Of a stretch of DNA of 64,000 nt, positions 785 to 34,284 are shown piece after piece. The stretch is from Zygnema cylindricum (Eukaryota > Streptophyta > Zygnematophyceae > Zygnematales > Zygnemataceae): the NCBI GenBank assembly GCA_037447655.1, contig JBBHKE010003486.1:91634-155633 (forward strand), written 5' to 3'. How positions within the stretch are numbered: the first letter of the stretch is position 1; each line of letters starts with the position of its first letter. The notes under the pieces were generated by a model. It was not told where the DNA came from, did not search any database, and worked only from the letters and a program-made list of their open reading frames with translations. The position numbers and the translations under genes are program-made.

Positions 785-903
785 TTCAGGAATGCATAAT
801 CTATCCCCTATTTGCAGATAAAAAAAACCGTCATCTAGTCAGAAGTTTTTGACATGCCTCTCATTCAATGGGTCAGAATTCCCTCCAAAAATGTTTTTGC
901 AAA

Positions 904-2302: not shown

Positions 2303-2504
2303 GTTCTATATCTCGAGAAGGTGGCCTTCCCGAGGGTAAATCACTTCGGAAAACATCTTGAAATTCAAAAATAAAATCCTTAACAGCAACATCAGATGTA
2401 TTAATGTCAATTACAAAATCAGATTTTAGTTTTTTGAAAGTTTTAGTGGTGTTTGATTTAGTGATGACATCAATGTTAGTGTTTTCTCCCCCCCCTTTCA
2501 TCAA
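2226..2504 (-). pseudogene. Protease-to-RT linker of the gypsy element
   Basis: A 92-residue frame between protease and RT. It ends with RPPSRDIEHVIKLEPG, which matches the usual lead-in to gypsy RT (an Asp-His-x-Ile-type strand followed by PV..). The frame is separated from RT by a frameshift in a short duplicated segment and from protease by about 50 nt with stops. Confidence 0.7.
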
Positions 2505-2553
2505 TAACTGCCTCAGTTAATAATAACAAGAAAGCATGACTCGTTTTGTCTTT

Positions 2554-3162
2554 TTAGTGCTTTTTAAATTGCTTAGCAGAAATCAAACCCTCCACTCCCA
2601 ATCTGTTTATGTTATTTCTATGATTCCTACGCAATTTCTTAGATGCTATTGCTTTCAAAACCTTCCAACCATTTTCAGACTTCACTTTTAAAGTGTTAAT
2701 TTCCCAATTAATTTGAGGATTATGTTCAATTAACCAAAGCTTTCCCAGAACTAGCTCTTCACTTCCCAAATTCATTATTTCACACACAACTTTCATTTTA
2801 TGACCCTGAATATCCACTTCAATTGTGTCAGTTTGTAAGTCTAATGTGGACTTATTACCATTTGCCACTTGAACATGTAAAGGCTTTTCCCTTATAACAG
2901 TAGGAATTCTATTTTCCTCTACAAACTTATGTGAAATAAAATTATGTGTAGCACCTGAATCAACCATTACTCTTAATGGTTTTCCCTCCACTAAAGACTC
3001 GAATCTAATCAAACTGTGTCTGGTGTCATCATTATTTAACTGTCCTAACATAGGTCTGTTGTTGAGAATTTCTTCAGAAGGGTTTTTCAAACTATGCAGT
3101 GTAGTGAGAATCATAATGAATTCAGCTATCATAACCTTTCTATTCATTAATTTGCCCTCCAA
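2554..3162 (-). pseudogene. Gypsy retropepsin-like aspartic protease
   Basis: The 202-residue frame holds LRVMVDSGATHNFIS, the D-S-G-A-T active site of plant gypsy proteases, and later EELVLGKLWLIEH, the flap-end/LG motif. These proteases act as dimers to cut the Gag-Pol polyprotein. The N-terminal third resembles the gag-protease linker. Active-site residues look intact, though neighbouring domains are broken. Confidence 0.88.
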
Positions 3163-3294
3163 ATTTAACTCTTTAACATCTGGATCTAGTTGACTCAGCT
3201 GAGGACTTTCATTTAGTCCTTTCCGTTTCCCACCTTCGGGCTTCCTGCTCAGCTAGGTATAATGCAATATCTTCTTGGAGACCTTCATTTACAT

Positions 3295-3515
3295 CGATTG
3301 TTTTTAGAGAACCTTTATCTGTACAGTCCTTAGCGTAATGATCTAGACCTCCGCATTTGAGAAAAGTGACTTTCTTTTTGGATTTTGTGCACTGTCTATT
3401 GAAATGTCCCTCCTCTCCACAGTTATAACAGTCAATCTTTTTCAGTTGTGCACACTCAAATGCTCTATGACCCTTTTTCTGACAGATAGTGCACGTGGGA
3501 CTCTCGGTTTAGTGC
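3295..3515 (-). pseudogene. Nucleocapsid with tandem CCHC zinc knuckles
   Basis: Minus-strand translation gives CTICQKKGHRAFEC and CYNCGEEGHFNRQC, both CX2CX4HX4C zinc knuckles. A third, KCGGLDHYAKDC, has lost its first Cys spacing. Knuckles bind the genomic RNA during packaging. The segment is out of frame with the gag frame at 3442-3909. Confidence 0.8.
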
Positions 3516-3909
3516 ATGTGCTCGGTTTAGGACTCTCGATAAATCCCCCTATATTGTTAAATTTGTTTTTTGCATTAACACTCTGTCCAATTCTTTGATT
3601 TCCCCTGAAGATTATTTCCCTACTCACCAGACAAGCATTCGGACCCTCTTCAATAAATTCCTCCTCATCCCACTCTGATACTTCATTCAAATTACCCCTG
3701 AGTGATCGAGTTTCCCCATTATACCCCAACTGATCCTCTAATTCCAATGATTTATCTTGTAATTCCTTCAAATTATTAAATATTTTATGTTTCAATTCTG
3801 ATTTCAGTATAGGATTCAAATAATTCAAGAAATGCAACTTAGCCATTTCATCAGTCAAACTTATGACATAAATGCTGGATGAGTCAAATTCCACAATATA
3901 ATCTTTCAC
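3442..3909 (-). pseudogene. Gypsy gag, C-terminal capsid part
   Basis: A 155-residue frame with the pattern of a retrotransposon gag domain: IVEFDSSSIYVISLTDEMAK, then LNYLNPILKSELKHKIF, followed by an acidic linker (EWDEEEFIEEGPNA). It continues the gag frame at 3937-4302 after a stop at about 3936. Confidence 0.75.
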
Positions 3910-3936
3910 ATATCTTGTCTGCTTACAGTTCAGCCA

Positions 3937-4302
3937 CTATTCTTCCATTCTTGATTTAAAATCGACAGACAAGAAACGCGATTTGATCGCGGTTTTAAAA
4001 GTTTCCCAATCAGCATTATCAAGAATTAATTTAGACCTTCTCTGAGTGTAATACCAAATTTGAGCATCGCTTTTCAGACAGCTAACACCAAAAGAAGTGT
4101 AATCATCACGATCACAATTTCTAGATTCCAAATAATACTCCATATGTAAAATACAAGCATCCAACTTATCAATCTTCTTACCATCAAACAATGGCGCCTC
4201 ACTAATAGACAATTTCAAATCTCTTATCTTCTTAGGTCTTTCATGATCATCTTCCCTAAAACTAGCATTCCTTTTACTACTCTCACCCTTTTGGTCATTC
4301 AC
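3937..4302 (-). pseudogene. Gypsy gag, N-terminal capsid part
   Basis: Contains LFDGKKIDKLDACILHMEYYLE, similar to the F-G-x3-P-x3-W-x4-YF block that opens plant gypsy gag, then QIWYYTQRRS and WETFKTAIKSRF, matching the retrotransposon gag domain. Ends with a stop in RMEE*, which splits gag in two. Confidence 0.8.
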
Positions 4303-4314
4303 ATCATTCTTGGT

Positions 4315-4524
4315 CTAAATTAAGTTAATAAGTTCATCCAATTTCTCATTTGCAACATTTCCATTTTCTTTAACAACTTTCAATTCATTTTTCAATTCGG
4401 AAATGGTTTCATCCACAGCAGCAGCATGATTAATAAATCTTTTGACCAATTTTACATTACGCTTCTTCAACACATCCGAAGCATTCTCCATTTCACGTTT
4501 CCATGCAGAATTTGCTATTAACAC
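4315..4524 (-). pseudogene. Gag N-terminal coiled-coil segment
   Basis: A 69-residue frame with heptad-like spacing (ETISELKNELKVVKENGNV) just upstream of gag. It is likely the N-terminal extension of gag cut off by a stop. No independent function is suggested. Confidence 0.5.
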
Positions 4525-4837
4525 ACAATGAAATCAAGCAAAAAAAAAGAAAGAATATAATTTCCCAAATAAATTTGTTGCAGATTTGAAGTCCTCAGAT
4601 TGCTCCAATCCAAGACTTCTTTTCGTTAACAAATCCTTTAAAAAGATAAAAATCTGGGAAATCAAAAAGACATTGAAAGTAATTTAGTGCAATTCAATTT
4701 TCAATTTCCCAACATTGAAACAAAAATGTAAGAATTTCCCCACAAATTTTGCAATAACAAAATTGAAAGCTCACAAAGGTAAGATTCAACCATAAATTTT
4801 GAAACAACAAAAAATGAAAGAAATCATAGGTAACAGT

Positions 4838-5023
4838 TTAGGGTTTGAAAAGTTTTAAGTCATTTATGGACTCCTTTACTCTTGAAGAAGTGCTCCACTT
4901 TCCTCCTCCACCATTAGCAAATTTCCCATTTCCCACTACATCAGGATCTTTTGTTCTATAATCTTCACCCTTCATGGCTTCAAGCCCTTCCTCTACACAT
5001 GAATCATTGCTAGGAGAAGGCAA
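4838..5023 (-). other. Gypsy 5' leader with a short open frame
   Basis: Between primer site and gag, 4525-5268 holds a 61-codon frame (SNDSCVEEGLEAMKGEDY) of uncertain status and A/T-rich leader. No domain is recognised. Confidence 0.3.
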
Positions 5024-5268
5024 GTTTGTTTGTCCTCTAGGTAATTGGAGTGAGCTTCACCGCTGGCTACACTGTCCACCCCGCCTTAGTCTTTAGGACT
5101 TGAGCACGCCCCACATCTAACCAGCGGCTGCTGGCTGTGTGATCACTCAGTTTCCCTCCAATCCCCTACCACTTCACATTGTGGTTCTACGGACACAGGT
5201 TAGAGCACCCTCACCGGTCACGGTAGTCAATATTCGAGTGAGCAAACTTCTCTCTGGTTTCTAACCAA

Positions 5269-5280
5269 GCTTTGATACCA
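5269..5280 (-). other. Primer binding site for initiator tRNA-Met
   Basis: Minus strand reads TGGTATCAAAGC, one mismatch from the common plant primer site TGGTATCAGAGC, complementary to the 3' end of initiator tRNA-Met. It lies 2 nt inside the inferred LTR end, the normal spacing, and fixes the LTR boundary at 5283. Confidence 0.8.
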
Positions 5281-5282
5281 TA

Positions 5283-6157
5283 TGTAATAGGATCTAGTAC
5301 CTCTCAAAAAATCCCATTACTACCAACAATTCGAACCACACATTCCACACATTGGAAATTACACATCCACATTGGACAACACTCACATAAGGATAAACTT
5401 TAAATTAGAAGAAGCTTTTGTCCACATAACATTAGCTTGGTCTCTTGCCCTCGTGGCTCAACCCTTCTTATTAAAGTGTTTTCCACTACTCTCCACTCTT
5501 AATAATTCTATCTCTTAACTACTAAAACACTATTTAGTTAGTAAGAAATTTCAATGCGAAAATGCCTTTTCTCCAATTTCGTATTAATCGCTCAGGACCC
5601 AGATCAGTCGGACATCATCGCCCTGGACAGGCGTTTACTTGGGCCAATCATTGATCAGCAAGGACTCTGACTGACCAATACAAAAACGTGCGAAATCTCT
5701 TACTAACTACTTAGCACTTTACTACCCAATCAAACGTTACGTTTCACTACGTAACATTTACATGCAAAAGTGCACGCCAAACAAAACGCGACTTCGCACG
5801 ATAGTGCGTCACAAATTTCGCACGCAAAACTTCCTATGAAATTCCCTTAAGTGAAAGTGACGTTTCGTACTAAAAATTGTACAAAACGAAGCACCATGCA
5901 TACTAAACGTTTCATTAGAACTTTATGAAACGTACACGCAAAATTTCGGTACTAATTTGACCCTTAACCCGTTTCAATGATACTCACTTGTAATTTAGAC
6001 CCCACGTTGTTACCTAAATACACCCATCGCTATAACTTTTAAAATATAACTCCAAATAGCGTGATTCTTTCGCGGACGTCTACCAAATTTAGTACTCTAT
6101 AATCATAACACCTAAATAACCCTTTGTGAACAAGTTCGATCCGTTATGACTGTTACA
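5283..6157 (-). repeat. 5' LTR of the first gypsy element (inferred ends)
   Basis: On the minus strand the candidate LTR starts TGTAACAGTCATAACGG and ends CTATTACA, giving TG..CA termini and a short imperfect inverted repeat (TGTAA / TTACA). The inner end is supported by the primer site. The outer end is inferred only from termini because the partner LTR is outside the window. Confidence 0.55.
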
Positions 6158-18855: not shown

Positions 18856-19231
18856 ACAACAATAGGGTTGCACAATAAAACCCACGTTACAATAGTATTG
18901 ATAGTATTCGGATGGTGAAACAAACAGGTTGGTTGCTCCTATATGTTTTTGCAGCTCCAGTATTTTATATCCAATAACTCACAATAGGTGCAAGAATGTA
19001 AATTTACGTGGTCACTGTTACATACTCCCACTATTATTGGAATTTTGACCTAAGTATGGCAACCCTCTCTGTTGTGTAGTACAATGTGCCAAAAACATTT
19101 AGTTGTTCCATTTTAAGTTAGCGCTCAATCTTCAGCGATATCAATGCGATATAAACATATCAATTTGACTAAAAACACTTTCGAAGCGTTACGAAAAATG
19201 ACAATCGCTAGAAAGAGTTATAGAAAGAAAG

Positions 19232-19521
19232 TGTCGAGCGTGCCCGAGAAACACAAGGGAAGGGCCCGCTGCCCGGAATGGCCGGTCTCGGCGTCCTGCA
19301 AAGAACCCACCAATGCGAATGCTTCCCATTATAATGGTAATGCCCACTGCTGACCCCATCCCTCCCAATAGGCATGCATGATCAGATAGGAGAGGCACAA
19401 GGATATGGAATAGGGATGAGTGCATGGGAAGGCGAAAAGATCTCCCCTCCCCCTTACTTTCCCCATTAAGCCGGGGAAAGGGGTTGGGTTCTCGGTAATC
19501 GGGTAGGTACCCCAATTTCCA
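19232..19521 (-). repeat. 290-bp direct repeat A, outer copy
   Basis: Nearly identical to 20708-20996. On the minus strand it starts TGGAAATTGGGGTACC right after the LTR core and ends GGCACGCTCGACA next to the possible AAAG target duplication. It has TG..CA ends. There is no third copy at the right LTR. Confidence 0.85.
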
Positions 19522-20705
19522 TGTGCTTATTCCACAGGAAATCTATAGCATTCGTCCCCTCAAAACCCACTATTTCGATGCCAGGAAATTGCAGTTTTTA
19601 CTCCGGGAAGTACCCGCCAAAGCAAAAGAGACTACAAGTGAAGACACAATTGCACTACCACGTGGACATATAAAAAAAAAAAATAGGAATGGCTGTTTCA
19701 GATTTAACAATATCACCTTGACCACAAAAATAAAATAGAAGATGGAAGATATAAAAGATGGCGAAGCAAGCTTAACATACCCCGACAATTTACGATGACA
19801 ACGGGAGAAAGGCGAAATATCTCCTGATGGCAGCGTAAATAGGTATGGTACTCCTTCAACCCTCGGTGTCCGCAGCTCAGAACCGACTAGACTCTTCTCA
19901 GTTTCAAGCAGCGAAAAATCCAAAAATCACCCAAAGGAACGGAAGTGCCAACCGCCAACCCGAACTATGATTTCCAAAATGGACAAATCCAAAACAGAGA
20001 TGGCAATAGAGTCAAAGAACACAAAGATTCTTCAAAAGAAGGTTTGTTGGAATTTCTGAGGGTTTTCACAGGAGACAGTACTGAAAAGCAACCTGTCTCC
20101 TTCGGCCCGAAGCGCCTTATACATCAAAGTTTGTCCAAAATATGGTTCAAAAGTCAGAACTATGCTATGAACCAATGAGCGGCAAGCAAGAGCAATCGAA
20201 CGAACAGAGGACCAACTTGTCCGTACTACGCTTGGGGCAAAAAGTTAAACATCTGACTACGGCGAGATCCGCGGCCGGAAGTTATTATTAGATCCGCAGT
20301 AATAAGCCAAACCACAAAGAAAATGACACTGAAGTGCCAAGCTTTGACTTAATGTAATTAATTAACCAGTGGTCAGCTGAATCTAAACTGAATTGCTACA
20401 GACAGCTAACAGCAAAATCTAGATGACAATCCAGAAGTCTACGTGGCAATCCACAATGTACCCTCCACTAGGGCTGGTGGAAGCTAGTACTAGGTGACGG
20501 AACTGCGATCTTTAAGACGGTAGAACTTTGTCGTCAAGCCTCCGTTATGCACGAAACAAAGTGCGTCTTGTTCAGTAAAGGAAATACCATAATCCTTCCG
20601 GCTGGTTGCGCTCACTCTTCCGTACTCTGAGAACAGTACGGGTAGGAAGGGTACGGAAATCCTCGGTAATATAGAACTGTGCCTGAAAAGCACTCGAGCT
20701 TGACA
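19522..20705 (-). repeat. 3' LTR core of the methyltransferase element
   Basis: 1,184 bp, nearly identical to 30826-32004. On the minus strand it runs TGTCAAGCTCGAGTGC.. to ..GCACA. The 77- to 117-codon frames inside are not genes. High similarity to the other LTR suggests a fairly recent insertion. Confidence 0.9.
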
Positions 20706-20707
20706 GC

Positions 20708-20996
20708 TGTCGAGCGTGCCCGAGAAACACAAGGGAAGGGCCCGCTGCCCGGAATGGCCGGTCTCGGCGTCCTGCAAAGAACCCACCAATGCGAATGCTT
20801 CCCATAATAATGGTAATGCCCACTGCTGACCCCATCCCTCCCAATAGGCATGCATGATCAGATAGGAGAGGCACAAGGATAGGGAATAGGGATGAGTGCA
20901 TGGGAAGGCGAAAAGATCTCCCCTCCCCCTTACTTTCCCCATTAAGTCGGGGAAAGGGGTTAGGTTCTCGGTTATTGGGTAGGTACCCGAATTTCC
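20708..20996 (-). repeat. 290-bp direct repeat A, inner copy
   Basis: Lies between a run of G (minus strand, 20994-21004) and the 3' LTR core, separated from the core by two bases, GC. The junction CTCGACA-GC-TGTCAAG looks like two LTR ends joined with 2 nt between. Minus-strand frames through it are duplicated in copy A. Confidence 0.85.
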
Positions 20997-21005
20997 CCCC
21001 CCCCT
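20994..21005 (-). other. G-run, candidate polypurine tract
   Basis: On the minus strand AGGGGGGGGGG precedes the inner A copy. In an intact element the polypurine tract touches the 3' LTR, so its position implies that A belongs to the LTR or that part of an LTR was lost here. Confidence 0.5.
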
Positions 21006-21025
21006 CTTAGTCAGCCGTGACTAAG
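21006..21025. repeat. Small hairpin (8-bp stem, 4-nt loop)
   Basis: CTTAGTCA GCCG TGACTAAG is a perfect inverted repeat just inside the G-run, at the 3' end of the internal region. Confidence 0.75.
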
Positions 21026-21187
21026 AAAAAAAAATAGTTACCCGCCCAATTCAAATTTCTCGCAGAACCATGGACTAGGGGATGGAGGGCATGGTTCCCA
21101 TGAGGAGGGGAGACAAGAGGGATGCCAGCACTGCCCGCACTGATGGCAAACCAAGATGTCTTGCTGCTGGGAGGACAGGTGGCAGGA

Positions 21188-21552
21188 TTATGAACAGGAA
21201 GGAGGATCGGCAAAGTAAGTCAAGTGGAAAGTCGGTTCGTCTTCTAATCCTCGGAGGTGACAAGGGGCCACATTGATTTGATTCTCTTTAATTCTTTGCC
21301 CATCTTTCCCCTCGAAAGTCAGAACTCCCTTATTTGAAACTTCCACCACTTTCAAGATCACCCGCCTGGCAGAAATGTCAAGCGTGTCCTTTTTCTGTTG
21401 CATGCGATACACAAAGTCTCCCGGCATAAATCATCGTTGTCGGGGCACATAATCTCCGCTCCGGCGCTGGGAATACCACAATTGATCCCGGTGTTGTGCC
21501 GCCTGTAAATTCCCCATGGCGAGAGGCATCTCCCGGTGGAAAATTTTGGCAC
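21188..21552 (-). pseudogene. Integrase C-terminal module
   Basis: Frames give ADCAKIFHREMPLAMGNLQ and then MPGDFVYRMQQKKDTLDISA..VILKVVEVSNKGVLTFEGKDGQ, matching the GDxV-type C-terminal DNA-binding part that follows gypsy integrase cores. Split by frameshifts. Confidence 0.7.
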
Positions 21553-21561
21553 AGTCGGCGA

Positions 21562-22401
21562 TCAGTTTTTCGACAGTTCCCTTGTCATCCATGCCGGGAG
21601 GACCACCGCTTGGGTAGAGGCAGCCCCGGGCAGAATGGGATGACTTCCGAATAAAATAAAGTAAGGGCTGTAGGAGTGAAGAGAAGCCTGTCTGCTGAAT
21701 CTGTATCCCATGGCAATCCAAGGCACCCTTCTGTCCCACTCTCCCAAGTCCTCTTCAACTGCATATTTCCGTAGTGACCGCTTCACTGTCTGTACGCACC
21801 TTTCGGCCAAACCGTCGGCTTGGGGGTGGTCACAACTGGTAAGTCGATGGTCGATGAGGCATTTCTCCAAAAGATTGGTAAATTCTCCGGCGAATTTCGA
21901 TCCCTGGTCTGTCAGAACCTCTGCAGGCGCCCCAAACTGTGACAGGACTCTTTGCAGAAAGGCGTTGGCAATGGACTTGGACTCCTTTCGGGGCAGGACC
22001 ACAAGCTCTATCCATTTTGAAAAATGTTCAATCATGACCAAAACGAAACGATTCCCACGTTTGCTGGTCGGAAGAGGACCCAAAAGATCCAAAGACCACC
22101 GATAAAACATTCCTCTGATGGGAAGAGAATGGAGCTCAGTTTCGCCCTTTTTGTCAAAAGGTGCCTTAACTCGATCGTAGGAAGAGCAAGTCTGCACAAT
22201 TCGGTTGACTTGGGCCCGCAACCTGTGCCACCAGTAAGAGCCGGTAACCAAGGAAGTGGTTCGCTTCTGTCCGAAGTGTCCGCATTGGTTATGGAGATTG
22301 GTAATCAGAGTTTCTCGATCTGAGGGAGGAGGAACCACTTTCCTAGTACCGTCTGTCCATTTCCGGAGGAGCACTCCTCGGTCCCATTCATATGCCGCCA
22401 T
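21562..22401 (-). pseudogene. Gypsy integrase core of the methyltransferase element
   Basis: 279 residues. Zinc-binding region CGHFGQKRTTSLV..YWWHRL..VQTCSSYDRVK, where the last Cys of the HHCC motif is Tyr. DDE residues appear intact: WSLDLLGPLP, VLTDQGSKFAGEF and HPQADGLAERCVQTV. In frame with the upstream RNase H across a TGA at 22414-22416. The C-terminus is shifted into the next frame. Confidence 0.9.
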
Positions 22402-22413
22402 CGTGGTCTGAAC

Positions 22414-23370
22414 TCAGGATAATTGTATTCCAGCCAAGTGGGAAAGAGGGGATCCCTGCTGAATAGATTGGAGAGCTTCGGAGTCATTCCAGATGTCTTT
22501 TCGTCCGGCTCCTATGGGTGCTTGCCCCTCAACATCTGCTGCAAAAGTTGACGATTCCCCCCCAGATGGAAGAAGCCAAATGAAGGCGGAGGATGATCGA
22601 ATGAGTCCCAAACTGATTTCCAGATCCTCGTCGTGCCGAGCCCCGGTGGAATCCAGGGTAGAAGGATCGGGGTTTCGGCTCATCCCGTCGGCATTCCCAT
22701 GAATTTCCCCTGCCCGGTGGACAATGCTGAAATCATATTCCTGCAGGATAAGAACCCATCTGGCGAGTTTGCCGGTAAACTTACTATTTTCCATAATCCA
22801 CTTCAAGGGTTGGTGATCGGTGATTAATGTGAAATGGACCCCGTACAAATAAGGTCTGAAATGATGGATGGCCCAAACCGTGGCAAGAAGCTCCCCATGA
22901 TAACTGCTATAATTTCCCTCAGCTCGGTTATTGCTCCGGCTGGCGTAAGCCACCACATACTCGGCACCTGCGTCGTCAACTTGAGCCAAAACAGCTCCCA
23001 ATCCAAACCTTCTCCAATCAGTGTAAAGGAGGAAAGGCCTCTGGTGATCAGGCATCCAGAGCACTGGGTGCTGCTTCAGGGCATCCTTCAAGAACTGGAA
23101 AGCGACCTGCTGTTCCTCGGCCCACAGCCATTCTTGATCTTTCCGCAATAGCTTATTGAGGGGCTGGGCGTGACTACTGAACTCGGGAATAAACCTGCGA
23201 TAGTAGTTAGCAAGACCGAGAAAGGTGCGCAAGGCAGAAATGTCTTGCGGGGGAGGAAGAGCGTCGAGGGCCGCAACCTTCACCATATGGGGACCCACTG
23301 TTCCCGGAGTTACCTCATGTCCGAGGTAAATGATTTTCTGCACCCCAAAAATACCCTTGCCGGGTGACAT
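22414..23370 (-). pseudogene. RT thumb and RNase H
   Basis: Begins with the RT end (IIYLGHEVTPGTVGPH, then LRTFLGLANYYRRFIPEF), tether EQQVAFQFLKDALKQHPVL, and RNase H with LLYTDWRRFGLGAVLAQ, GELLATVWAIHHFRPYLYG, LITDHQPLKW and HGNADGMSR. The catalytic DAS-type motif is DWR here. A frameshift near 23340 separates it from the RT palm. Confidence 0.9.
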
Positions 23371-24290
23371 TTCAAGCCCGCTGCTTGAAGAGCCCGGAGA
23401 ACGATCTGGATATGCTCCAGGTGTTCTTCAGAGGTCTTGGAAAATATTATCACATCGTCGATGTAGCACCTGGCACAATCGATTCCTCGGAACGCTTCGT
23501 CCATGGCCCGTTGGAACTTTGCAGGTGCATTCTTCAGTCCGAAAGGCATGTAAATCCACTCATAAAGTCTGGATCCAGCCCAGAATGCCGTTCTCTCTCG
23601 GTGTTTTGGTTCCATAGCAATCTGGTGGAAACCATTCTTCATGTCCAGTGTGGAGAAAATAGTGGATCCAGCAAGAGAGTCGAATATCTCTTCCGGAGTT
23701 GGCATTGGGTACCGGTCAAGAATGGTGGTCGTGTTCAACATGCGGTAGTCCCCACACATTCGGAAGTCCACAGTTTTCCCGGATGAATCCTTCTTAGGGG
23801 GAAGAACTGTGGGGGAAGCAAACCCATGGAGTCCGGTACTTTCCTGAACCAACCCTGCTTCGACCAAAGGTTGAACCTTTGCAGTAATAAACTCTTTCTC
23901 TTTGAAGCTGAGAGGATATTGTTTCTGCCAAACCGTTGCGGTTTCGTCGATCAAATCTATCGGAAAGGGGGTTCCTGTGTAGATTCCGACATCTGTTTCG
24001 GACCACGAGAAAACCTGAGTGTTTCTGGCCAAGAGTTCTGTGAGCTGTTCTTTCTGCTGAGGGTCCAGCTGCTCCCCCAGAGTCCAGTCCATTTTTCCCG
24101 GCTCAACCGCAGCCCAAGCTTCCCGTGGTCTTCCCCAGAGGTTGATGTCGAATTCTAGCCCAACCTGTGGATCAGCCTCTATTCCTCCGGATAATACTTT
24201 ACTGCTGACAACTTCCGCTAAGCTGTCTCCTTCTGAGCTCCCGTTCCCCCCCACTGAAGGAACTCTCGGATGTAGAATTTTTCTCTTTTC
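23310..24290 (-). pseudogene. Gypsy reverse transcriptase fused behind the methyltransferase
   Basis: RT occupies about residues 170-493 of a 493-codon frame starting at 24791. Landmarks: PFPIDLIDETATVWQKQYPL, FRMCGDYRMLNTTTILDRYP, FSTLDMKNGFHQIAME, YMPFGLKNAPAKFQRAMDE and CYIDDVIIFSK with the catalytic Asp pair. There is no stop between methyltransferase motif X and the RT, so both were one polyprotein. Confidence 0.95.
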
Positions 24291-24369
24291 TCTCCCCCCC
24301 TCAAGCTGCAAAGTTGCTTGCATGGACAGTAACTGTGGAGCTTGAAGGTAATGTCTACATGAATCTGGA

Positions 24370-25345
24370 GTGTGGATATTGGAATAGGCAAGAGCATGCT
24401 TCACAACCCATGTAATGGCATTTAAATCCATGCTTTGCCCTATGAGGCTGCACCGCTTTAGTTCTGAGATACCTGGTGCTGCCGTCGTTTCCGGAAGAAA
24501 TCCCATTGCCTGTTCTCGTTCCGTTATTGTCGGTGCTGTCCAAAGTCTTTCCTTGCTGTCAAAAATCATTCCAGCAGCTCCTTTCCGGTAGGCATGACTG
24601 TGAGGAAAAGATACCAACGTGGGCAGTGCTCGACGTGGGAATCCGGGGATATTGCATTTGAAGAAAGGTGGCCGATTCGGTTTCGGTACAGGTGTCGCCA
24701 TTCTCCCTTTTCCAAGTATCTGCTTCACTGAAATCTGGGGGTCGGGGGACTGTGTTTTTAACAATTGCCGGAGGACTGGAAGAGGGGTCATATTCGTCCA
24801 ATATGCCCGGAGTCTGTGCGCTCAAGATCCCACTTGAGCAGCGTCAAAAACGAAGGGATCTCCCAGAATACGGGTTACCTGATTCCAACTGTCTGCAACC
24901 TGCTGTCGTTTATCATCCCCCGGGTGGACATTCTCCAGAATGTACCCCACTGGGTGCTCTGGAGCTGCTGAATCCACGATATCAATGTAATCATCTGATA
25001 GAAGGTTCCACTTCGGTGGTCCTAATGCCCTCTTCCTTGTCCTGCCAGGGAGTATCCCTGACAAGGCCATCCCGCCACCACCAGATCTACTCTCCCCAGA
25101 TTAGCTAAATGAGGGGCCATTATATTTTCCACGTTGTGGGGAAGACTCCGGTGAGCCTTGGAAATGGAAGACACTGGAAGCTGTTGTGGATATAAGCGGT
25201 GCAGTTGATGGAGGCGGTGTTCGCTGACAGCTCGCGCTTCCGGTGAAATTTCCACTGCTGTGTAGGACTCCACTCGATACCCTGCTTTTAAAACTGCCTC
25301 CAAATCAGAACTGATTCCTGAAAATAAAGAGAAAATCCGAAGTCC
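24370..25345 (-). pseudogene. Cytosine-5 DNA methyltransferase domain in pol
   Basis: Motifs run in canonical order. I: LRIFSLFSGISSDLEAVLKAG (S-adenosylmethionine binding, about 25342-25280). IV: VDLVVAGWPCQGYSLAG, with the catalytic Cys at 25061-25063. VI: GYILENVHPGDD (24935). VIII: FVFDAAQVGS*AHRLRAYWTN. IX: APTITEREQAMGFLPE. X: CSLIGQSMDLNAI. Between VIII and IX lies a target-recognition-like stretch of about 70 residues. Motifs VIII and X look closer to DNMT3/DRM than DNMT1, but the order is not rearranged as in plant DRM. Broken by TAG at 25022-25024, a frameshift near 24950 and TGA at 24822-24824. The family transfers methyl from S-adenosylmethionine to cytosine C5. Confidence 0.93.
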
Positions 25346-25918
25346 GGAGTCTGGGAGTATCAATGACACCACTTGTCGATTGAAATCCTCGCTCCCAGTC
25401 TGGGGTTTGAAAACATCTGACGGGATCGTCGAATCTGTTTTTGGTAATAGTAAGGCCAAGAAGGTTTGATCCACTCCCCGTCGGAGTTTCGCCACCTGCA
25501 ATAATCGGTCTTTGTATTCCCTTTCCCACCGCTTGGAAATCGGGAATTGCTAGATGTCTTCGGCAATATCTGTGGAGCTGTCAAACAGCTCCGCCGGAGA
25601 GGTGGTAGAATACACGGGGTAACAGCCAGACACCGGAACATTTGTCTTTCCCCGGTTCCATAAATCCAAAGGAACCACAACTTTGGTCCCTTCGGGATTT
25701 CCTGGGTCCCGAACTGTACATTGCTCTTTCCAAACACTCAAGCTCATATTCATGCGGGTCCAAGTTGCCATTCCCAACAGAATTTCAAACTGATTCCCTT
25801 CAACCACTAAGAAAGGAAGCCCAATTTTCACCTTCTGTCCCGCATCATCTGAGAATTCAATGTCCATGGCTTTGATGATCCCATGGACGGGCTGATTGTC
25901 GCTGCTGACTGTGCTCAA
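25346..25918 (-). pseudogene. Protease C-terminal half and linker to methyltransferase
   Basis: Contains GLPFLVVEGNQFEILLGMAT, the ILLG-type second motif of retropepsins, then a linker (PVSGCYPVYSTTSPAELFD). One TAG at 25550-25552 interrupts it; the same frame then runs through QFPISKRWERE into methyltransferase motif I, showing that protease and methyltransferase were continuous. Confidence 0.8.
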
Positions 25919-25966
25919 ACAGATGTTACTAGGGCAGATCTAGGGTCTAAATTCTTCCGACATTTT

Positions 25967-26554
25967 CTACAATGCAGAAGTAGTGATGAGGTTGGGGAGT
26001 GCTCCGGTATCCACCACAGCGTCTTGATAACCGCCGTACCCGTTCAGTTTGAAATTCCCGGTCCGGTTTAGAATAAGTGCCACGGACAAAGCTTTGTAAT
26101 CCCTATCCGCCATAGGGGTCTTAGGATCTGAAGACAAGTATACCGCCGGGGATGGTGTCACCCTGTCGACTTTGTCTTTTCCAGCATGGATCTCTTCTCC
26201 CAGGGCCTGAATGAGGATCTCTTTGGGCAGATTATTGTAGGAAGCAAGTGTCTTGACATGGGTCAAGGCATAAGGCATCAAATGCTGGACCAGCATAGCA
26301 GCAGGCTTGGATGAATGGAACGGAGCTTTCGGGGAACACGTTGTCGGATCTGCTACCTGTTCCTGTTCGTTACCCTCCTTGTCTTCACTGTCAGAACCGG
26401 AATCGGGCATTGGCGGAGTTTGGGGTGCCTTCTCGTCCGGGCGTTCCGCCATGAATCGTTCAAACCAATCTTGATCACTCTGTTGGTCCCCTTCCAGTGA
26501 TTTCTCTTCCCGCGGTTGGCTCTTCTTTCGGTAGTTTTCGAACCCGGGAGGCAA
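25967..26554 (-). pseudogene. Gag-protease linker and protease active site
   Basis: An acidic, Pro-rich stretch (PDSGSDSEDKEGNEQEQV) leads to ALILNRTGNFKLNGYGGYQ and DAVVDTGALPNLITTSAL, the D-T-G-A aspartic protease active site. Ends with TAG at 25967-25969, with a second TAG at 25940-25942 before the rest of the protease in the same frame. Confidence 0.82.
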
Positions 26555-26857
26555 TTTAGGTTGAGGAGGAAAAGGAGGGGCTTGAGTGGGCTTGATCCCA
26601 AGTCCTATGTCACTGTTCAGAATGACTGCCCTGGCGTGAAAGACAAAGGCCCGGTGGCCTTCCGGTTGTGGTTCTTTTGGCCCATTCTCTGCCTGTCTCT
26701 CCTCTGATCCGAGGTTGAGGAGCGGAGTTGTCTACGACCATCTCCCACTCCAACATTCCATGCTCCGTGCAGAAAACTGTTTGCATGGTGGGCATTTGGA
26801 GTTTCCAAATCCCAGCCCATCAAATCATCGTCATTAACACCCGATGTGCTTTGAAGC

Positions 26858-27245
26858 TCAAGCTCCGCTAGCTTTTGTAATAACTCCCTGCTTCTGCCTT
26901 TGGAGTCGTTGCGCTGCAGTAAGAGGAGCAGGCCGGTAAGGAGACCCCATACGGAGGGCAGCCAATTCTGCAGCCATGGCAGCCATCTGCTGACTCTGCT
27001 GCTGGATTATTATCTCTGGTGTAAGTCTTGCGGGATTAGTCGTAAATGGTTGAGGCATCACGGGGGTAGGCAGCACTGGGCGCTCCCAAGGATAAAGGAG
27101 TTGTAGGGGAAGAGGGTTAACGGCAGTCTCTCCTTCTCTCATGAACAAAGCGAATTGCATCATTTCTTTAGGGATCCCGTTCTTCCGGAAACATTGTCCC
27201 TCCTTGTGCCCCATAAAACCACAAGCTTCGCATTTGTGACCCTTA
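26858..27245 (-). pseudogene. Second zinc knuckle and Gln/Pro-rich spacer
   Basis: Reads HKCEACGFMGHKEGQCFRK, a CX2CX4HX4C knuckle, followed by a Gln/Ala/Met-rich helix (IIQQQSQQMAAMAAELAALR). Probably part of the nucleocapsid-protease region of Gag-Pol. 26558-26857 holds further linker frames with no domain. Confidence 0.7.
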
Positions 27246-27312
27246 GTGGTATACTTGCTTTGAATCTCGTTGGAGATCTGAGCATCGTCAAACTTTGGCA
27301 GTTTGATTTGTC

Positions 27313-27852
27313 TCAGTTGGGTCGGTAATTGTTCTTGGTGACCAGTGTTCTCTCCCCCCCCCCTGCTTTAAGCTTTTCTTCATGCTGCTTCTGGTTCCTT
27401 TCTGAACGCTCTACCTCCCATTCTTTCAACTTGAGGGCTAGCTCCGGTTTGAGTTTCCTGCTGCAGCGTTTCCATCCATGTCCAGGTTGTTGACAATTTA
27501 GGCAGTTGTACAGAATTACCCAATCGTCAGCCCCCATTGCCTGTTCTGGCCCGCTGTCCACCACTTGCTTCCCTTTTAGCTTCCGCAAAGCTTGGAGTTC
27601 AGCTTGCTTTTCCCCACTTAAGGAAGTTTCCCCGGTGAATCCTGTAAAATTTGCTCTTGCCTTGCCGGTCACGGCTTTTTCTCTCGCCTCACTGTGAACG
27701 AAGTGGTCGTATAACTTCATGGCCACCAGTGATATGTCCTTAGAAGAGGGATTTATATCATGGATGGCCTGTCCCGCGATCCAGTTATCTAAAGCAATCT
27801 TCCCTGTTGGTCCGAAAGAATTTCGGACAGCTATGAAATATTTAGTCGCCAT
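27313..27852 (-). pseudogene. Gag capsid end and first zinc knuckle
   Basis: MATKYFIAVRNSFGPTGKIA leads to a capsid-like helical segment, then CLNCQQPGHGWKRC, a CX2CX4HX4C knuckle, and a charged tail (EWEVERSERNQKQHEEKLK). Continues the frame from 27919-28119 after a break. Confidence 0.8.
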
Positions 27853-27918
27853 TGCGGGAAGGTCAATGGTGGACAGTTTAGTCTTCTGACAAAGACTAGA
27901 GAGGCGGTTAAAGAGTGT

Positions 27919-28119
27919 CTAAGGCGTCTCATTCTTCAAACACCGGAATTGCGTGAATTCCTTGATGGCTGATTCGTTCCTCTCGGTGTAGAGGAGTCTC
28001 CAGATGTTTAGAAGAGTGGTGCAAGGGGTAGGATTCGCCACCATACGAGTTGCAGCCCGAGCTGCCTGCATTGCTTGTAGCTGGTTAACGTAGGCCCTCC
28101 CTTGGGCCTGCAGCTTCAT
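27919..28119 (-). pseudogene. Gag capsid middle segment
   Basis: MKLQAQGRAYVNQLQAMQAA..NIWRLLYTERNESAIKEFTQF resembles the helical capsid region. It follows the 28140 stop by a frameshift (the same region reads IATFTDD into this frame). Confidence 0.65.
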
Positions 28120-28139
28120 ATCATCGGTGAAGGTAGCTA

Positions 28140-29336
28140 TTACAGGGTAGCTGCGGCGGCCGCCAACTCTGCCTCCGCTTGTAGAACTCCTGCATCCAGG
28201 ACCGGATCGGAGATTTTGATGCTTGGAGCCATCAAGAGAGGTTGACGCTCCTTATAATCTGCCAACGCCCCTCCAGAGAGGTAGTTGACCATCATGGGAA
28301 AGAGAGTTGTTTCGAAGTCGTCCGGAATAGCTCCTCCCCTGTACTTATTGATTTCCGATTGAGTGAAAGATTTCCACAACAACTCGAAATCTGAGAAAGC
28401 GATCCCTGAGCTGTCCCCTGTAAATATTCGAATATCCCCCATTTCTTTCTCTTCTTCCGCTGGTTGGGTGAACTGGGAAAAGGAAAGGCCGGTGGGACTA
28501 ACGAACTGTGCCGGCGAAGTAACCCCTTTGTCCTCTTCTTCGGGACCGGAACCGCCTTCTCCTCCGGTAGGAGATGCTGTTCCGCTAGGCGCGGATACTC
28601 CTCTCGCAGAGGAAGTACCAACCCCTGAAAGGATGGCTGGAGGCAGGGTATTCCTCACGGGAAGAATTCCTAGCCCCCGGTGAGCAGAGAGTATCTGCGT
28701 TTGAAGACTTGTCTGGCCTGTTGTCGCAGAAGGAAGGGCCCACTCCTCTTCGTCCACTCCTCGATATCCACGGGAATACCTTTCGTCCTGACGAACTGTC
28801 TCCTCTGAAGGGATGTGGATCCGAGGTCTGTTCAAAGGTTTATCTCCGGGCAGAGGTGGAGACGAAGACGACGAAGGCCCGTTCTGAGGAGAAGGAGTTT
28901 GTCTTCGGAAAGGAGTCTGTTTCCAGGGCCGTCTTCGGGAGGTTTCAAGAGGTGGAGTTCCGGAACTGGAGGAGGGGGGACGCCTGTGAGGAGGGGAGTA
29001 TACGTCGTACTTATAGGGTAAATTCAGCGGACCTGGGGACCCACGGTCGGCTCCTGTAAGAGAAACGGAAGGAGATGGAGAGGAGATGGGATTGTCCCGG
29101 GGTTCTGTGGCCGGAGCCGGGGAGTGGGAAGTAGGAGGACGAGGAGGGAAAGGAAGAGGATCAGGGGACAGTCTGGGTGGAGAAGAAGGAGGTGTAGACG
29201 GTCTCAAAGCGATGTGAATTCTTTCGTCCGGTTTTAACTCCACTAAGGCCTCAACAGCCTCAAAAACCTCCACCGAAACAAAAGTAGGCTCTTCCCGCGG
29301 AGCCGCTTCGAGTTCGAACGGTAAATCTGCACCCAA
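28140..29336 (-). pseudogene. Gag, Pro/Ser-rich region leading into capsid
   Basis: 398 residues, mostly disordered and rich in Pro, Ser and Arg, then MGDIRIFTGDSSGIAFSDFE and LLWKSFTQSEINKYRGG at the start of a capsid-like fold. Reached from the upstream gag frame by a frameshift in 29243-29336. Confidence 0.7.
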
Positions 29337-30742
29337 ACCCCCAATATTAGGTCTTGTGTCTGCCCCCTCTTCCCGCTGAAGAGGAGGTTCCCGACCAATC
29401 TCCGAAGGATGAGCCTGGGGTGGAGCTCCGACGTTGTTTCTGCTACTGGTGTTGGAGGGATCCGCCCACTGAGGATCCCACTGGTCCTCCGCCTAGCTTC
29501 CCGGATGAGATTCAATTCCTGCTCCCACAACTTTCTCCGTTCTTCCTCCAATGCTTCCCAATCCACTATAACGGGTCCAGTCCCCGCCGTAGCCGAGCCC
29601 TGAGATTTTAAAATTTCCACTAGTTCCTTAGCCCTTTCCACGACTCCGGTCAGATCAGCTATCCCTGCTCCTAGAATTTCTGGATCTGTAGGCCTGGCTC
29701 GAAACAATCCCTCGGAAAACTCTTCTGGTTCGGTTTCCGGAACCTCTGGGTCAGTGGGTTCGGGTCGCCAGAACCCTCCATCAGGGCGGACCCGGGGTGC
29801 TGGAGGGGTAGATCTCTCGGTGGAGACTGGCACTGGCGTTGGGGAAGGTTCTTCCTTGGGAATAGGTGCAAATCTACCCTTGCTATCCCTGTGGTCAAAC
29901 TTCTTCCCCCTCCCCGGCTCTGGAGCCCCGCTATCGCTGCCATCTGCTCTCCTACGAGACCTCGAAGTTGGGCGCCCTCGGGACGGTCGGCTTGCTGCAG
30001 TGTCTTGGGAAGAAGATGGAGGAGGGCGAGAAGGAGGAGCCCTCCTAGGCCTTCCCTGCAAGGACTGTGAGGAACCACTCTCTGAAGAGCTGCTTAGAAT
30101 CTCCACTACCCCTCCCACTGGTTTAACCACCCGAGGTCGATCCGACCGAGACACTCTTTGCACCAACTCCTGCTTAACCTTCAGTTCATGAAGATCATGA
30201 AGAGCAAGGAGTTCCTTTCGACCAGGGCGGCTGGGATCCGTCAAAACCGCAGGGTCAATCTGAATTTCGGCCCTGGGAATATTTGATCTGGTGTGAAGCC
30301 CGACCTCCGGAAGGGGACCCAAAAGGGGCTCCCGCTGAGCTTGCCTCTTTGGCCTAGCCCGGGGTAACACTTGGTTTCTTTCTTGAGCCTGTGCTCTGGA
30401 CTCCTTTCTTTCCTCGGTAAAGGTTCTGGAGGCCTCCGCCAAGGAGGGAAAATGTTCGGGAGTGAGGCTAGGAGGAGATGGGGGCGAAGTTTGTGGTTCG
30501 GGTGGTTTCGGAGGAGTCTCAACCCTAACACGCTCAGGCATCATCCCCTGGAGAAACCGCTCTATGTTGGCAGGCGAGGTGAAGGGGACGGATTCTTCGA
30601 GAACCTGTGACTCTTCTTCTGATACCACCGCTTCTTGATTCGCCCGTTCTTCCGGCCTGGCACCGGAGAGATTCTTATCTTGAGCTTCACCCCCCCCCAT
30701 GATGACGAAGGTCTCGAAAGAAGAATCAACGACAGGAAACAA
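29243..30742 (-). pseudogene. Gag, long disordered N-terminal region
   Basis: 499 residues from an ATG 84 nt inside the 5' LTR core. Acidic start, then Pro-rich (RVETPPKPPEPQTSPPSPPS) and Arg/Ser-rich blocks. A GADLTGVVERAKELVEILK-like helix occurs near residue 385. With the next frame the pre-capsid part is about 800 residues, very long for gypsy gag. No domain recognised; it may be a separate protein. Confidence 0.65.
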
Positions 30743-30825
30743 ATCTCGCTTCCGCCAAGAGAGCTTCTAAAGTCAAAAAGCTCCTATCCCCTCTAATCCG
30801 AAAGAGACAGGTGGCTTTTCAGTAC
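30743..30825 (-). other. 5' leader of the methyltransferase element
   Basis: Only 83 nt between LTR core and gag ATG. No TGG-type primer site is seen beside the LTR. Instead 30798-30825 is an inverted 27/28 match to an LTR-internal segment (31377-31404), which suggests rearrangement of the primer region. Confidence 0.6.
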
Positions 30826-32004
30826 TGTGCTTTATCCACAGGAAGTCTATAGCATCCGTTCCCTCAAAACCCACTGTTTCGATGCCAGGAAATTGCAGTT
30901 TTACTCCGGGAAGTCCCCGCCAAAGCAAAAGAGACTACAAGTGAAGACACAGATGCACTACCACGTGGACATATAAAAATAAATAGGAATGGCTGTTTCA
31001 GATTTAACAATATCACCTTGACCACAGAAATATAATAGAAGATGGAGATATAAAAGATGGCGAAGCAAGCTTAACATACCCCGGCAATTTACGATGACAA
31101 TGGGAGAAAGGCGAAATATCTCCTGATGGCAGCGTAAATAGGTATGGTACTCCTTCAACCCTCGGTGTCCGCAGCTCAGAACCGACTAGACTCTTCTCAA
31201 TTTCAAGCAGCGAAAAATCAAAAAATCACCCAAAGGAACGGCAGTGCCAACCGCCAACCCGAACTATGATTTCCAAAATGGACAAATCCAAAACAGAGAT
31301 GGCAATAGAGTCAAACAACACAAAGATTCTCCAAAAGAAGGTTTGCTGGAATTTTTGAGGGTTTTCACAGGAGACAGTACTGAAAAGCAACCTGTCTCTT
31401 TCGGCCCCAAGCACCTTATACATCAAAGTTTGTCCAAAATATGGTTCAAAAGTCAGATATATGCTATGAACCAATGAGCGGCAAGCAAGAGCAATCGAAC
31501 GAACAGAGGACCAACTTGTCCGTACTACGCTTGGGGCAAAAAGTTAAACATCTGACTACGGCGAGATCCGCGGCCGGAAGTTATTATTAGATCCGCAGTT
31601 ATAAGCCAAACCACAAAGAAAAGGACACTGAAGTGCCAAGCTTTGACTTAATGTAATTAATTAACCACTGGTCAGCTGAATCTAAACTGAATTGCTACAG
31701 ACAGCTAACAGCAAAATCTAGATGACAATCCGGAAGTCTACGTGGCAATCCACAATGTACCCTCCACTAGGGCTGGTGGAAGCTAGTACTAGGTGACGGA
31801 ACTGCGATCTTTAAGACGTTAGAACTTTGCCGTCAAGCCTCCGTTATGCACGAAACAAAGTGCGTCTTGTTCAGTAGAGGAAATACCATAATCCTTCCGG
31901 CTGGTTGCGCTCACTCTTCCGTACTCTGAGAACAGTACGGGTAGGAAGGGTACGGAAATCCTCGGTAATATAGAAGTGTGCCTGAAAAGCACTCGAGCTT
32001 GACA
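30826..32004 (-). repeat. 5' LTR core of the methyltransferase element
   Basis: 1,179 bp, nearly identical to 19522-20705 with a few substitutions and small indels. Minus strand starts TGTCAAGCTCGAGTGC and ends GCACA. Lacks the adjoining A segment found on both sides of the other core. Confidence 0.9.
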
Positions 32005-32700
32005 AAAGGCTATATATTTATTTAGACTTTAAAACATGTTACTTGTAGAAACTGATCTTGCATAACATGTTCAAATTTTTTCGTGTACCTTGAGTTTCGT
32101 TTGCCTATCATCGTTAAAGTTGAAACCGTTTTGTATTTTCTTTTGTGGTATAAACTTTTCATACGAAAAAGACCTAAATCTATAACAAACCATATCAATT
32201 GCGAAAGGTTGTTTGAAGCAATAACTTTGAATGTGTGTATATATTAGAAATTCATATTAATCGTAGTAAGTTGTCATAAAAACAAGATCGTCGTGTACTC
32301 TAGTTTGTACTATTCACGAAAGCATTAAAACAAAATATCCTATAAAGTGCAAGTATTTGAAGACCTCACGAACATATTTATAAAACAACTACAAACATGT
32401 AAAATTAAAGTGAAACGCTTAAGCCGCCACATGTAGATTAAAAAAAAAGGACCACTTATCAAGACCGGTCTATTTTACAATATTTTGAAATGTTGCGCAT
32501 ATGGCTTTTGAATCCTATTTTGCTTGTACTTATACATCAAGATCAATTTTTGATGATAGGTTTTCTCCATTGACTTGGTTTGTAATAAACTAGCATGTGG
32601 AAAGCGTGTGTTTAGGACTTCTTCTCAACGCCAAAGTGTTGTCAAATATATTCACTGAAGAAGAGTGTAACATACCAATGAGTTTTACACTATACTTACC
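32005..32700. other. AT-rich spacer
   Basis: No domain, splice pattern or repeat match seen between the LTR end and the R copy. Confidence 0.4.
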
Positions 32701-33764
32701 CGTTTTTGAATGACGAGTCTTTATTGCTAATCAGATTAACAACAACTTGATTTGAAAGAAGCTAAATTCGAGGACCAAGTATCAATACAAGTGCATTCTT
32801 CAACATATGAGCTTAATTATATTAAAGGGTTCCAATCGGTCTCACGGTATTTCTACACGATTAACGATGTTTATGTTCTATTTTTTAGCATGTAGTAAGC
32901 TTGTGTTTGCTTGTACTTTTTTGTTTCGGCAAACTGGTAGAACTTCGCACACCTAAATGAGCACACGCAATCGAAAGATTTTGTATGCGCAAGGTTGGAG
33001 ACAAGCAATGATGCAGGTTCGTAACGAATTGTGAAGTTTAAGCGAAAAAAAAAATCGAATCGATAAAAAATTATCGGTTCGTTTTGTTCACGGGAATGGT
33101 TGCCGGAAGCTCGAATGTGAACGCGAAGGTCGTCTTGCGGCTGTTTCTGTTGCCGCCCATCGCGTATTCTCCGCCGCCCAGGTTGTGCTGCAATCATGGC
33201 AACACGAACGTGACAGCGACGGCGACGGACGGCTGGAGTGTGACGGGGCCTTGAAATGGCCTAAAGTATTAGATGGAACGCCTTTTGCGGTGACGTAACT
33301 GGAATTGCGTGTGCACATGACGAGCTGAGCCCATGGAACTCGTCACCAGAATCTCCTCTTGTGAAAGTAGGGAATTGCTAATCGTAGAGACAATTTTTGC
33401 TACGCGTAAGTAGTTGCGTCAGCTTGTCAAAAATTTTACTTTTGAAGTACAGTTTACTACAAGTTACGTACCTTTGAGTTCAGATTTGATGGTCAATCCG
33501 TCGAACAGCTTTGACTTGCGAAATTGTAACAACCGGTTAAAAAAGTACTGCGTTTGCGAACGTTGATCGTCATAAAAAAAACAATAATTCACACGGCCGG
33601 CCAAGGTTTACTATAACAAAACTGCGGTAACAACATGTAAATAAAATTGTTGCGCGCATGTACTCACTTCACTTGAGCTCCACTGTAAGAGCACACATTG
33701 GTATTTAAGTGCGTACATTATTTTTCCTTTATGTGCTCATTTTACTTTTTTCGTCGTATTTACC

Positions 33765-34064: not shown

Positions 34065-34284
34065 AGAAAGTGAAGTGAGAAAGGATCTGCGCGCAACAAT
34101 TTCATTTACATGTGGTTGCCGCAGTTTTGTTACCCGTAAACCTGCCGGCCGTGTGAATTGCTTTTTTATTTTATGAGGGTCGACGTTCGCAAGCGCGACA
34201 CTTTTTTAACCAGTCGTTACAATATTTCGCAAGTCAAAGTTGTTCGACGGATTGACCGTCAAGCATAAACTCAAAGGTACGTAA

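Follow-up and report, generated by a model that had tools for sequence, protein, structure and literature searches.

Is the cytosine-5 DNA methyltransferase (DNMT) found in a Ty3/Gypsy retrotransposon of the alga Zygnema cylindricum a lasting part of that element or a host gene caught in a single copy, and what might a retrotransposon do with such an enzyme? The window analysed here is the whole stretch of 64,000 nucleotides (contig JBBHKE010003486.1, positions 91,634 to 155,633), and the element lies on its minus strand at 19232-32004 (Table 1). Gypsy-borne DNMTs have been known since 2018 from Klebsormidium nitens (de Mendoza et al., 2018). As far as searched, what is new are relatives in Closterium, Marchantia and metagenomes, trees of the DNMT and of the reverse transcriptase (RT), RNase H (RH) and integrase (IN) with common main clades, the domain order RT-RH-DNMT-IN-PHD, and a life cycle that can be provisionally read from the repeats.

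Table 1. Mapped parts of the Ty3/Gypsy element in the window, from its 5' to its 3' end (TSD, target-site duplication).
Feature	Position	Strand	Basis
TSD CTTT, 5' side	32005..32008	-	end reading
Repeat B1, element 5' end, begins TGTCAAGC	30826..32004	-	blastn, 96.7% identity to B2
Putative transcription start/self-priming segment within B1	31374..31404	-	30/31 nt complementary to stretch at/after B1 end
Putative primer-binding site at and directly past B1 end	30798..30828	-	score 28 vs <=11 in 100 shuffles
Gag region, several broken ORFs, zinc-knuckle-like motifs by eye	26858..30766	-	ORF list
Aspartic protease region, stop-broken, approximate limits	25553..26120	-	DTG motif by eye: DTGALPNLI in ORF 25967-26731
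Conserved UAG (TAG CAA TTC), protease/DNMT boundary	25550..25552	-	TAG in 8/8 genomic copies with site found
DNMT3-class C5 methyltransferase	24333..25357	-	tblastn with intact copy, Pfam; class taken from intact copies
Reverse transcriptase	23358..23798	-	Pfam RVT_1 2e-26
ORF with RNase H	22414..23427	-	Pfam RT_RNaseH 6.7e-35
ORF with DDE integrase (H2C2 zinc binding, rve)	21562..22413	-	Pfam 2.9e-14, 1.9e-12; D, D, E by eye
C-terminal PHD finger remnant	21040..21165	-	by eye
Polypurine tract	20997..21011	-	G-rich run directly before A1 in 6/6 copies examined
Repeat A1, ends GCTCGACA	20708..20996	-	97.6% identity to A2
GC spacer of palindromic A1/B2 junction CGACA-GC-TGTCA	20706..20707	-	GC in 7/7 copies with readable junction
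Repeat B2	19522..20705	-	comparison with B1
Repeat A2, element 3' end	19232..19520	-	comparison with A1
TSD CTTT, 3' side	19228..19231	-	end reading

The methyltransferase domain and its family in the host genome

A sequence-only reading of this locus had proposed a C5 methyltransferase on the minus strand, with motifs I, IV, VI, VIII, IX and X in canonical order, between the protease and RT of a Gypsy polyprotein. All of this was borne out: tblastn with the domain of an intact copy recovered it in two pieces (E 1e-101 and 2e-62), Pfam DNA_methylase matched the first piece only and just below the cut-off (1.6e-4, 21.7 bits; cut-off 22), and the motif order was read from the ORFs and an alignment. 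The proposed continuity with the neighbouring domains holds in part. The TAG at 25552-25550 is in frame with the protease upstream and with motifs I-IV downstream, and motifs VIII-X share one ORF with RT (23310-24821), the sole parts to do so; the DNMT as a whole is not one continuous frame. Motifs I-IV (PCQ) lie in ORF 25022-25549 and motif VI (ENV) in a separate frame (24822-25100), the frame change falling between motifs IV and VI, and a stop separates motifs VI and VIII. Since further stops and frame changes interrupt the protease and the joints between RT, RNase H and integrase, the window copy is defective. Pfam found no match in the one gag ORF scanned (27313-27918).

The genome around the element holds many better preserved copies. 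A DNA_methylase profile search of 352.8 Mb in 2689 contigs gave at least 123 matches over the family cut-off elsewhere than the window copy, which is itself not in the table, and by our own count from that table 85 of the 123 have no internal stop. Two families were found among the copies fetched, namely PCQ, which includes the window copy, and ECQ, in which Glu replaces Pro in motif IV and the catalytic Cys is retained. ECQ was also seen for PCQ in motif IV of conserved domains at loci L004, L005 and L015 and in many metagenome relatives. One ECQ copy, C1344, is a single uninterrupted frame of 2395 aa with Pfam domains for methyltransferase, RT, RNase H, integrase and PHD finger; its zinc knuckle and protease gave Pfam matches only below the cut-offs. 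The PHD finger of intact copies matched Pfam PHD at 2e-10 in C1344 and at 6.6e-4, below the cut-off, in the PCQ copy C1374. Fusion to RT, which the earlier reading had put up for checking along with the existence of further copies, is thus seen in one frame in C1344, and RT is also present in 24 of 47 related proteins (the 43 relatives described below and the first six of an earlier search). A host gene captured in the window copy alone is refuted by the further genomic copies and by these RT-bearing relatives; no point was found in its favour, and it can be put aside as having next to no probability.

Judged by its nearest structural relatives, the domain is of the DNMT3 class with an unrearranged motif order. 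The best PDB relatives were DNMT3A for both types (2.7e-14 for PCQ, 1.4e-10 for ECQ), far weaker matches were bacterial enzymes, plus DRM for the PCQ type, and no DNMT1 or CMT was listed among the PDB matches of the PCQ and ECQ domains at E 0.01. An initial description as DNMT3/DRM-like in unrearranged order is therefore kept in its DNMT3 and unrearranged parts, whereas DRM methyltransferases have a rearranged motif order and the elements here the canonical one. A scan of viral contigs with the domain found no relative that would point to a viral origin.

Pairwise dN/dS of the DNMT domain was 0.06-0.26 where dS was usable, with three comparisons dS-saturated and the lowest values coming from high dS, and RT gave 0.035-0.117; one near-identical pair gave a DNMT value of 0.34 from almost no changes. 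The dN of the domain was 1.4 to 7 times that of RT. On these substitution rates the domain is evolving faster than RT yet is maintained under purifying selection. The catalytic Cys, the Glu-Asn of motif VI and the R.R of motif VIII are invariant across nine aligned sequences. CpG depletion was considered as a sign of methylation and proved uninformative, the observed/expected ratio of four elements (0.68-1.0) overlapping that found elsewhere (0.62-1.26).

A conserved UAG and the relatives of the element

The TAG between protease and DNMT is a conserved feature and no lesion. All eight PCQ copies where this site could be located have it at the same place (C633, C1042, C412, C1374, C507, C544, C1662 and the window), followed by CAATTC in seven copies and by TAATTC in C1662; the search pattern was [Q/E/stop]FPIS, so that copies diverged there would escape. 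Given this conservation, the DNMT-Pol product is probably made by readthrough, and programmed UAG readthrough is probably the best reading for the PCQ family. The frame downstream of the UAG is under selection, as the dN/dS of the domain indicates. With readthrough, the rarer Pol product would begin with the DNMT. No UAG separates protease and DNMT in the ECQ copy C1344. A hairpin follows the UAG in C1374-like copies and in the window; because it differs in C412, it is not used as proof of readthrough.

When the domain was used as a protein query (Pol residues 60-420 of 1520 aa), 43 proteins were retrieved. The named relatives were KFL_009030040 of K. nitens, proteins of Closterium NIES-53 and NIES-54, four of Marchantia polymorpha and one EukProt gene, and the remainder were metagenomic or unnamed. 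KFL_009030040 has the order PR-DNMT-RT-RH-IN (PR, protease), as in the window, and its domain shows 42% identity over 68% of the query. It seems to belong to the kind described in 2018, and since it has the same order, neither the lineage nor the PR-DNMT-RT arrangement is new in kind. Domain mapping of the 47 proteins gave three layouts: PR-DNMT-RT-RH-IN(-PHD), the layout of K. nitens and the window copy; RT-RH-DNMT-IN-PHD, where the DNMT separates RNase H from integrase; and PR-DNMT in proteins that end there. The Marchantia proteins and similar metagenome proteins end shortly past the DNMT; of the four Marchantia records, three carry the label partial. The dose of DNMT relative to Gag may be different in the Marchantia proteins from that in the readthrough elements. 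Marchantia proteins P0134, P0136, P0144 and P0147 are PR-DNMT proteins in a land plant.

Main clades are common to the tree of the DNMT (54 rows) and that of RT+RH+IN (28 rows): the second layout forms one, and the others pair PCQ with P0132, ECQ with P0139 and K. nitens with P0142; the placement of Closterium differs in resolution between the two. The 28 DNMT-bearing rows, K. nitens included, form one clade against five DNMT-less Gypsy proteins (support 100/98). From these trees a single acquisition of the DNMT appears likely among relatives in which close DNMT-less elements are hardly sampled, and the DNMT3-class domain would have been in the polyprotein since before the subfamilies of the host, K. 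nitens and Closterium split. The association thus looks old on phylogenetic grounds. Fusions in Klebsormidium, Closterium, Marchantia and metagenomes, together with the common clades, mean that selection seems to keep the DNMT and Gypsy together, and the association is not the curiosity of one alga.

Split repeats and a proposed route of insertion

Conventional Ty3/Gypsy elements carry one direct LTR at each end; the order here is B1-coding-A1-GC-B2-A2 instead, although the DDE integrase, the short TSD (exact in 6 of 12 copies) and the TG..CA ends are alike. The same A1/B2 junction with split repeats was found in seven copies. The outer ends, TGTCA[A/T]GC and GC[A/T]CGACA, match as inverted repeats over 8 bp, save for one mismatch. 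At the cut site, a CpG is present in the 3' end of the copies read (complementary strand TGTCG) and absent from their 5' end (TGTCA).

Ends were sought in 29 copies (11 whole and 18 by end windows) and both were read in 12. The exact 4-bp TSDs are CTTT in the window, TTGG in C1344, CCCC in C2602, AAGG in C829, CCCT in C1915 and ACGT in C507, with B2 not read whole in C829 and C1915. Flanks agree at three of four positions in C449 and C2458 and do not match at C1374, C1870, C1965 and C1042. Two copies were left out of the count, C544 (start and A1 end, no second repeat, GAAC/AGCT) and C2577 (end perhaps A1). In a permutation test on 11 copies, omitting C1042 with its first two bases changed, none of 100000 permutations reached six exact TSDs.

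The stretch past B1, at the primer position after the 5' repeat, is complementary to a mid-B segment in all five copies compared (window 30/31 nt, C1344 18/18, C2602 16/16, C1374 18/19, C449 15/15), against a best background score of 10-12 in 100 shuffles per copy. These sequences fall into three groups (window and C1374; C2602 and C449; C1344), the pairing being kept though the sequence differs. A TATA-like box was noted by eye upstream of the segment within B1. The repeat form was compared with one control element, a DNMT-less Ty3/Gypsy at the left edge of the window (59-6153, minus strand, and L086) with protease, RT, RNase H and integrase, whose RT is 36% identical to the RTs of the DNMT elements. 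It has ordinary LTRs (approximately 6153-5283 and past the window edge, 94% alike), the target duplication GTAAT on both sides, and a primer site, TGGTATCAAAGC, of the Met-tRNA type.

The B2|A2 junction is exact to 0-1 nt in five copies (window, C1344, C2602, C1374, C449) and shifted in four. B2 of C507 continues about 325 nt into the leader/gag start (by eye), and A2 starts near its nt 28; in C1965, B2 ends at 822 of 1186 and is followed by a stretch beginning about 530 nt before A; in C1042, B2 ends at 806 and A2 begins at 11; and in C1407, B2 ends at 705 of 931 and A2 begins at 6. The shifts in C1042 and C1407 could come from later deletion, and those in C507 and C1965 from recombination between copies.

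From these repeats a life cycle open to testing can be read, with a circle as the proposed substrate of a DDE integrase. Gag-PR would be made first, UAG readthrough adding DNMT-RT-RNaseH-integrase-PHD. By its complementarity, the 5' end of the RNA could fold onto the site after B1 and prime reverse transcription, and priming at the B1 end with a plus-strand start at the polypurine tract would give a cDNA of the form A-GC-B-coding-A-GC-B, that is, with LTRs of the form A-GC-B. The cDNA ends would then be joined into a circle, the B2|A2 junction representing the joined ends, and the DDE integrase would open the circle at the internal CGACA-GC-TGTCA palindrome. Insertion with a 4-bp TSD would leave B-coding-A-B-A, a circular permutation of the cDNA. 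The repeats, ends, TSDs and junctions are the grounds from which we infer the circle and its opening by integrase, and because the B|A junctions vary as end joining leaves them, a DDE integrase acting on an end-joined circle is proposed. A circle is the end-joined intermediate we would suppose from the junctions, and a concatemer could serve as an alternative. Two structures are unexplained by the circle, an A-like end and GT ahead of B1 in C1965 and a second A in C1374 with 3.8 kb between. An unusual product of the circle, or else a rearrangement, may account for the C1965 structure; this locus (G000:C1965 424255-429455: L079, L075, L050; 439555-441955: L084, L051) was also seen to have a pol-end stretch between B2 and A2. 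Taken whole, a model of an old DNMT3-bearing Gypsy family with UAG readthrough, self-priming, a circle, DDE insertion and de novo CG methylation seems moderately probable.

Two other origins of the repeat structure have been weighed. DIRS elements are not known to have target duplications. The split repeats might nevertheless reflect DIRS-type insertion, with a tyrosine recombinase supplied in trans, for the repeat order is that of DIRS, as a legend of the 2018 paper states for K. nitens (PMC5890265); the integrase is however DDE (rve) in both host families, no tyrosine recombinase was present in the ORFs scanned, and six of 12 copies have exact 4-bp TSDs, leaving this very improbable. It is about as improbable that nested, tandem or recombined LTR copies gave rise to the A-B-A end secondarily, the inserted form being a different one. 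Clear rearrangements in C1374 and C1965 would suit such an origin, but the same junctions recur in diverged subfamilies, the TSDs lie exactly at the outer B and A ends, and the B repeats of C1344 are fully identical over 931 nt.

Function, precedents and neighbouring features

On the circle model, the most likely role of the DNMT would be de novo CG methylation of the newly made cDNA or of the circle, ahead of insertion. As to what the METHYLTRANSFERASE does, self-methylation of the cDNA is held to be the likeliest function with about even confidence, and action on host chromatin is its main rival. Such action in trans, by silencing or at the insertion site, with the PHD finger as chromatin recruiter, would suit the position of that finger at the end of the polyprotein, and effects on the insertion site and the host methylome are raised in PMC5890265; on the other side, a DNMT within Pol would be expected at a low level and inside the particle, and we consider this action unlikely. 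It is improbable that the domain has lost catalysis and persists as a DNA-binding part or passenger. ECQ for PCQ in one host family and many relatives, and the raised dN of the domain, could be taken that way, but the invariant catalytic residues and the purifying selection described above argue against it.

Several known systems share parts of this arrangement. Tf1/sushi LTR elements are self-primed, the RNA 5' end being complementary to a primer site next to the 5' repeat; the complementarity is alike here (with a putative RNA 5' end), whereas the split repeats differ, and the likeness is one of arrangement. DIRS/PAT/Ngaro elements have split direct repeats and a circular intermediate, so that the repeat order is alike, while the DDE integrase and 4-bp TSDs found here differ. 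In IS3-family circles a DDE enzyme acts on abutted ends with a short spacer, which is a mechanistic likeness only, IS3 not being a retroelement. In retroviruses, 2-LTR-type circles are known as dead ends. Tentatively, and at somewhat less than even confidence, it may be supposed that a DDE-integrase retrotransposon inserts from an end-joined circle of 2-LTR type cut at an internal palindrome, and that split-repeat elements (DIRS with an adenine methylase, SymbioDIRS, and Gypsy here) repeatedly gain DNMTs because their nuclear circle has to be methylated, whether to conceal it or to gate the integrase. This idea draws on the cut-site CpG seen in the 3' end and lacking in the 5' end. If true, the circle would explain the DIRS-like repeats of these Gypsy elements, and it offers a reason for methyltransferases gathering in split-repeat elements.

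The closest precedent is KnitGypsy-Dnmt3 of K. nitens, which is reported to have a DNMT3-class domain in the Gypsy Pol under purifying selection and a DIRS-like repeat order (de Mendoza et al., 2018; PMC5890265). These features and a common RT/RNaseH/IN clade are likenesses to the elements described here; the host differs, as does the domain, to the extent given above. According to the same paper, no methylation was seen when the K. nitens domain was put into yeast, a result the authors called inconclusive because human DNMT3B failed there too, whereas SymbioDIRS DNMT3 domains produced CG methylation in yeast; adenine methyltransferases were known in DIRS-class elements, and self-methylation of cDNA had already been proposed (PMC5890265). 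SymbioDIRS-Dnmt3 and SymbioLINE-Dnmt of Symbiodinium are likewise retrotransposons bearing C5 methyltransferases, SymbioDIRS with split repeats, and differ in having tyrosine recombinase or LINE machinery and a distant RT class (PMC5890265). Readthrough, protease, PHD, target site, Marchantia and Closterium are absent from the main text of PMC5890265. With reference to the 2018 paper, a later article speaks of DNMT3 members within "LTR Copia and DIRS" elements (PMC12344493). Among the open-access matches listed, by title and abstract, there were no other reports of split repeats with Gypsy and a methyltransferase or integrase, or of DNMT-bearing elements.

The window also contains a Copia-type retrotransposon (62098-63930, plus strand) with gag, Pol_BBD and integrase, and pieces of a COBRA-like host gene (54516-55596, plus strand) with a COB_C domain, which are probably exons. 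An inverted repeat of about 210 nt (33464-33674 and 34068-34284, 84% identity by blastn, about 400 nt apart) is possibly a foldback or MITE-like element. Elsewhere in the host, a RuBisCO large-subunit search found no match, and for an LHCII protein the nearest full-length relatives among the best 120 of 4563 matches were metagenome proteins (81%, 80%, 78%), followed at 77% by the EukProt entry Mesen1 (Mesotaenium by its code), which points to a probable streptophyte. On contigs C519 and C2590 (L032, L033), many similar LHCII genes sit in clusters and alternate in orientation.
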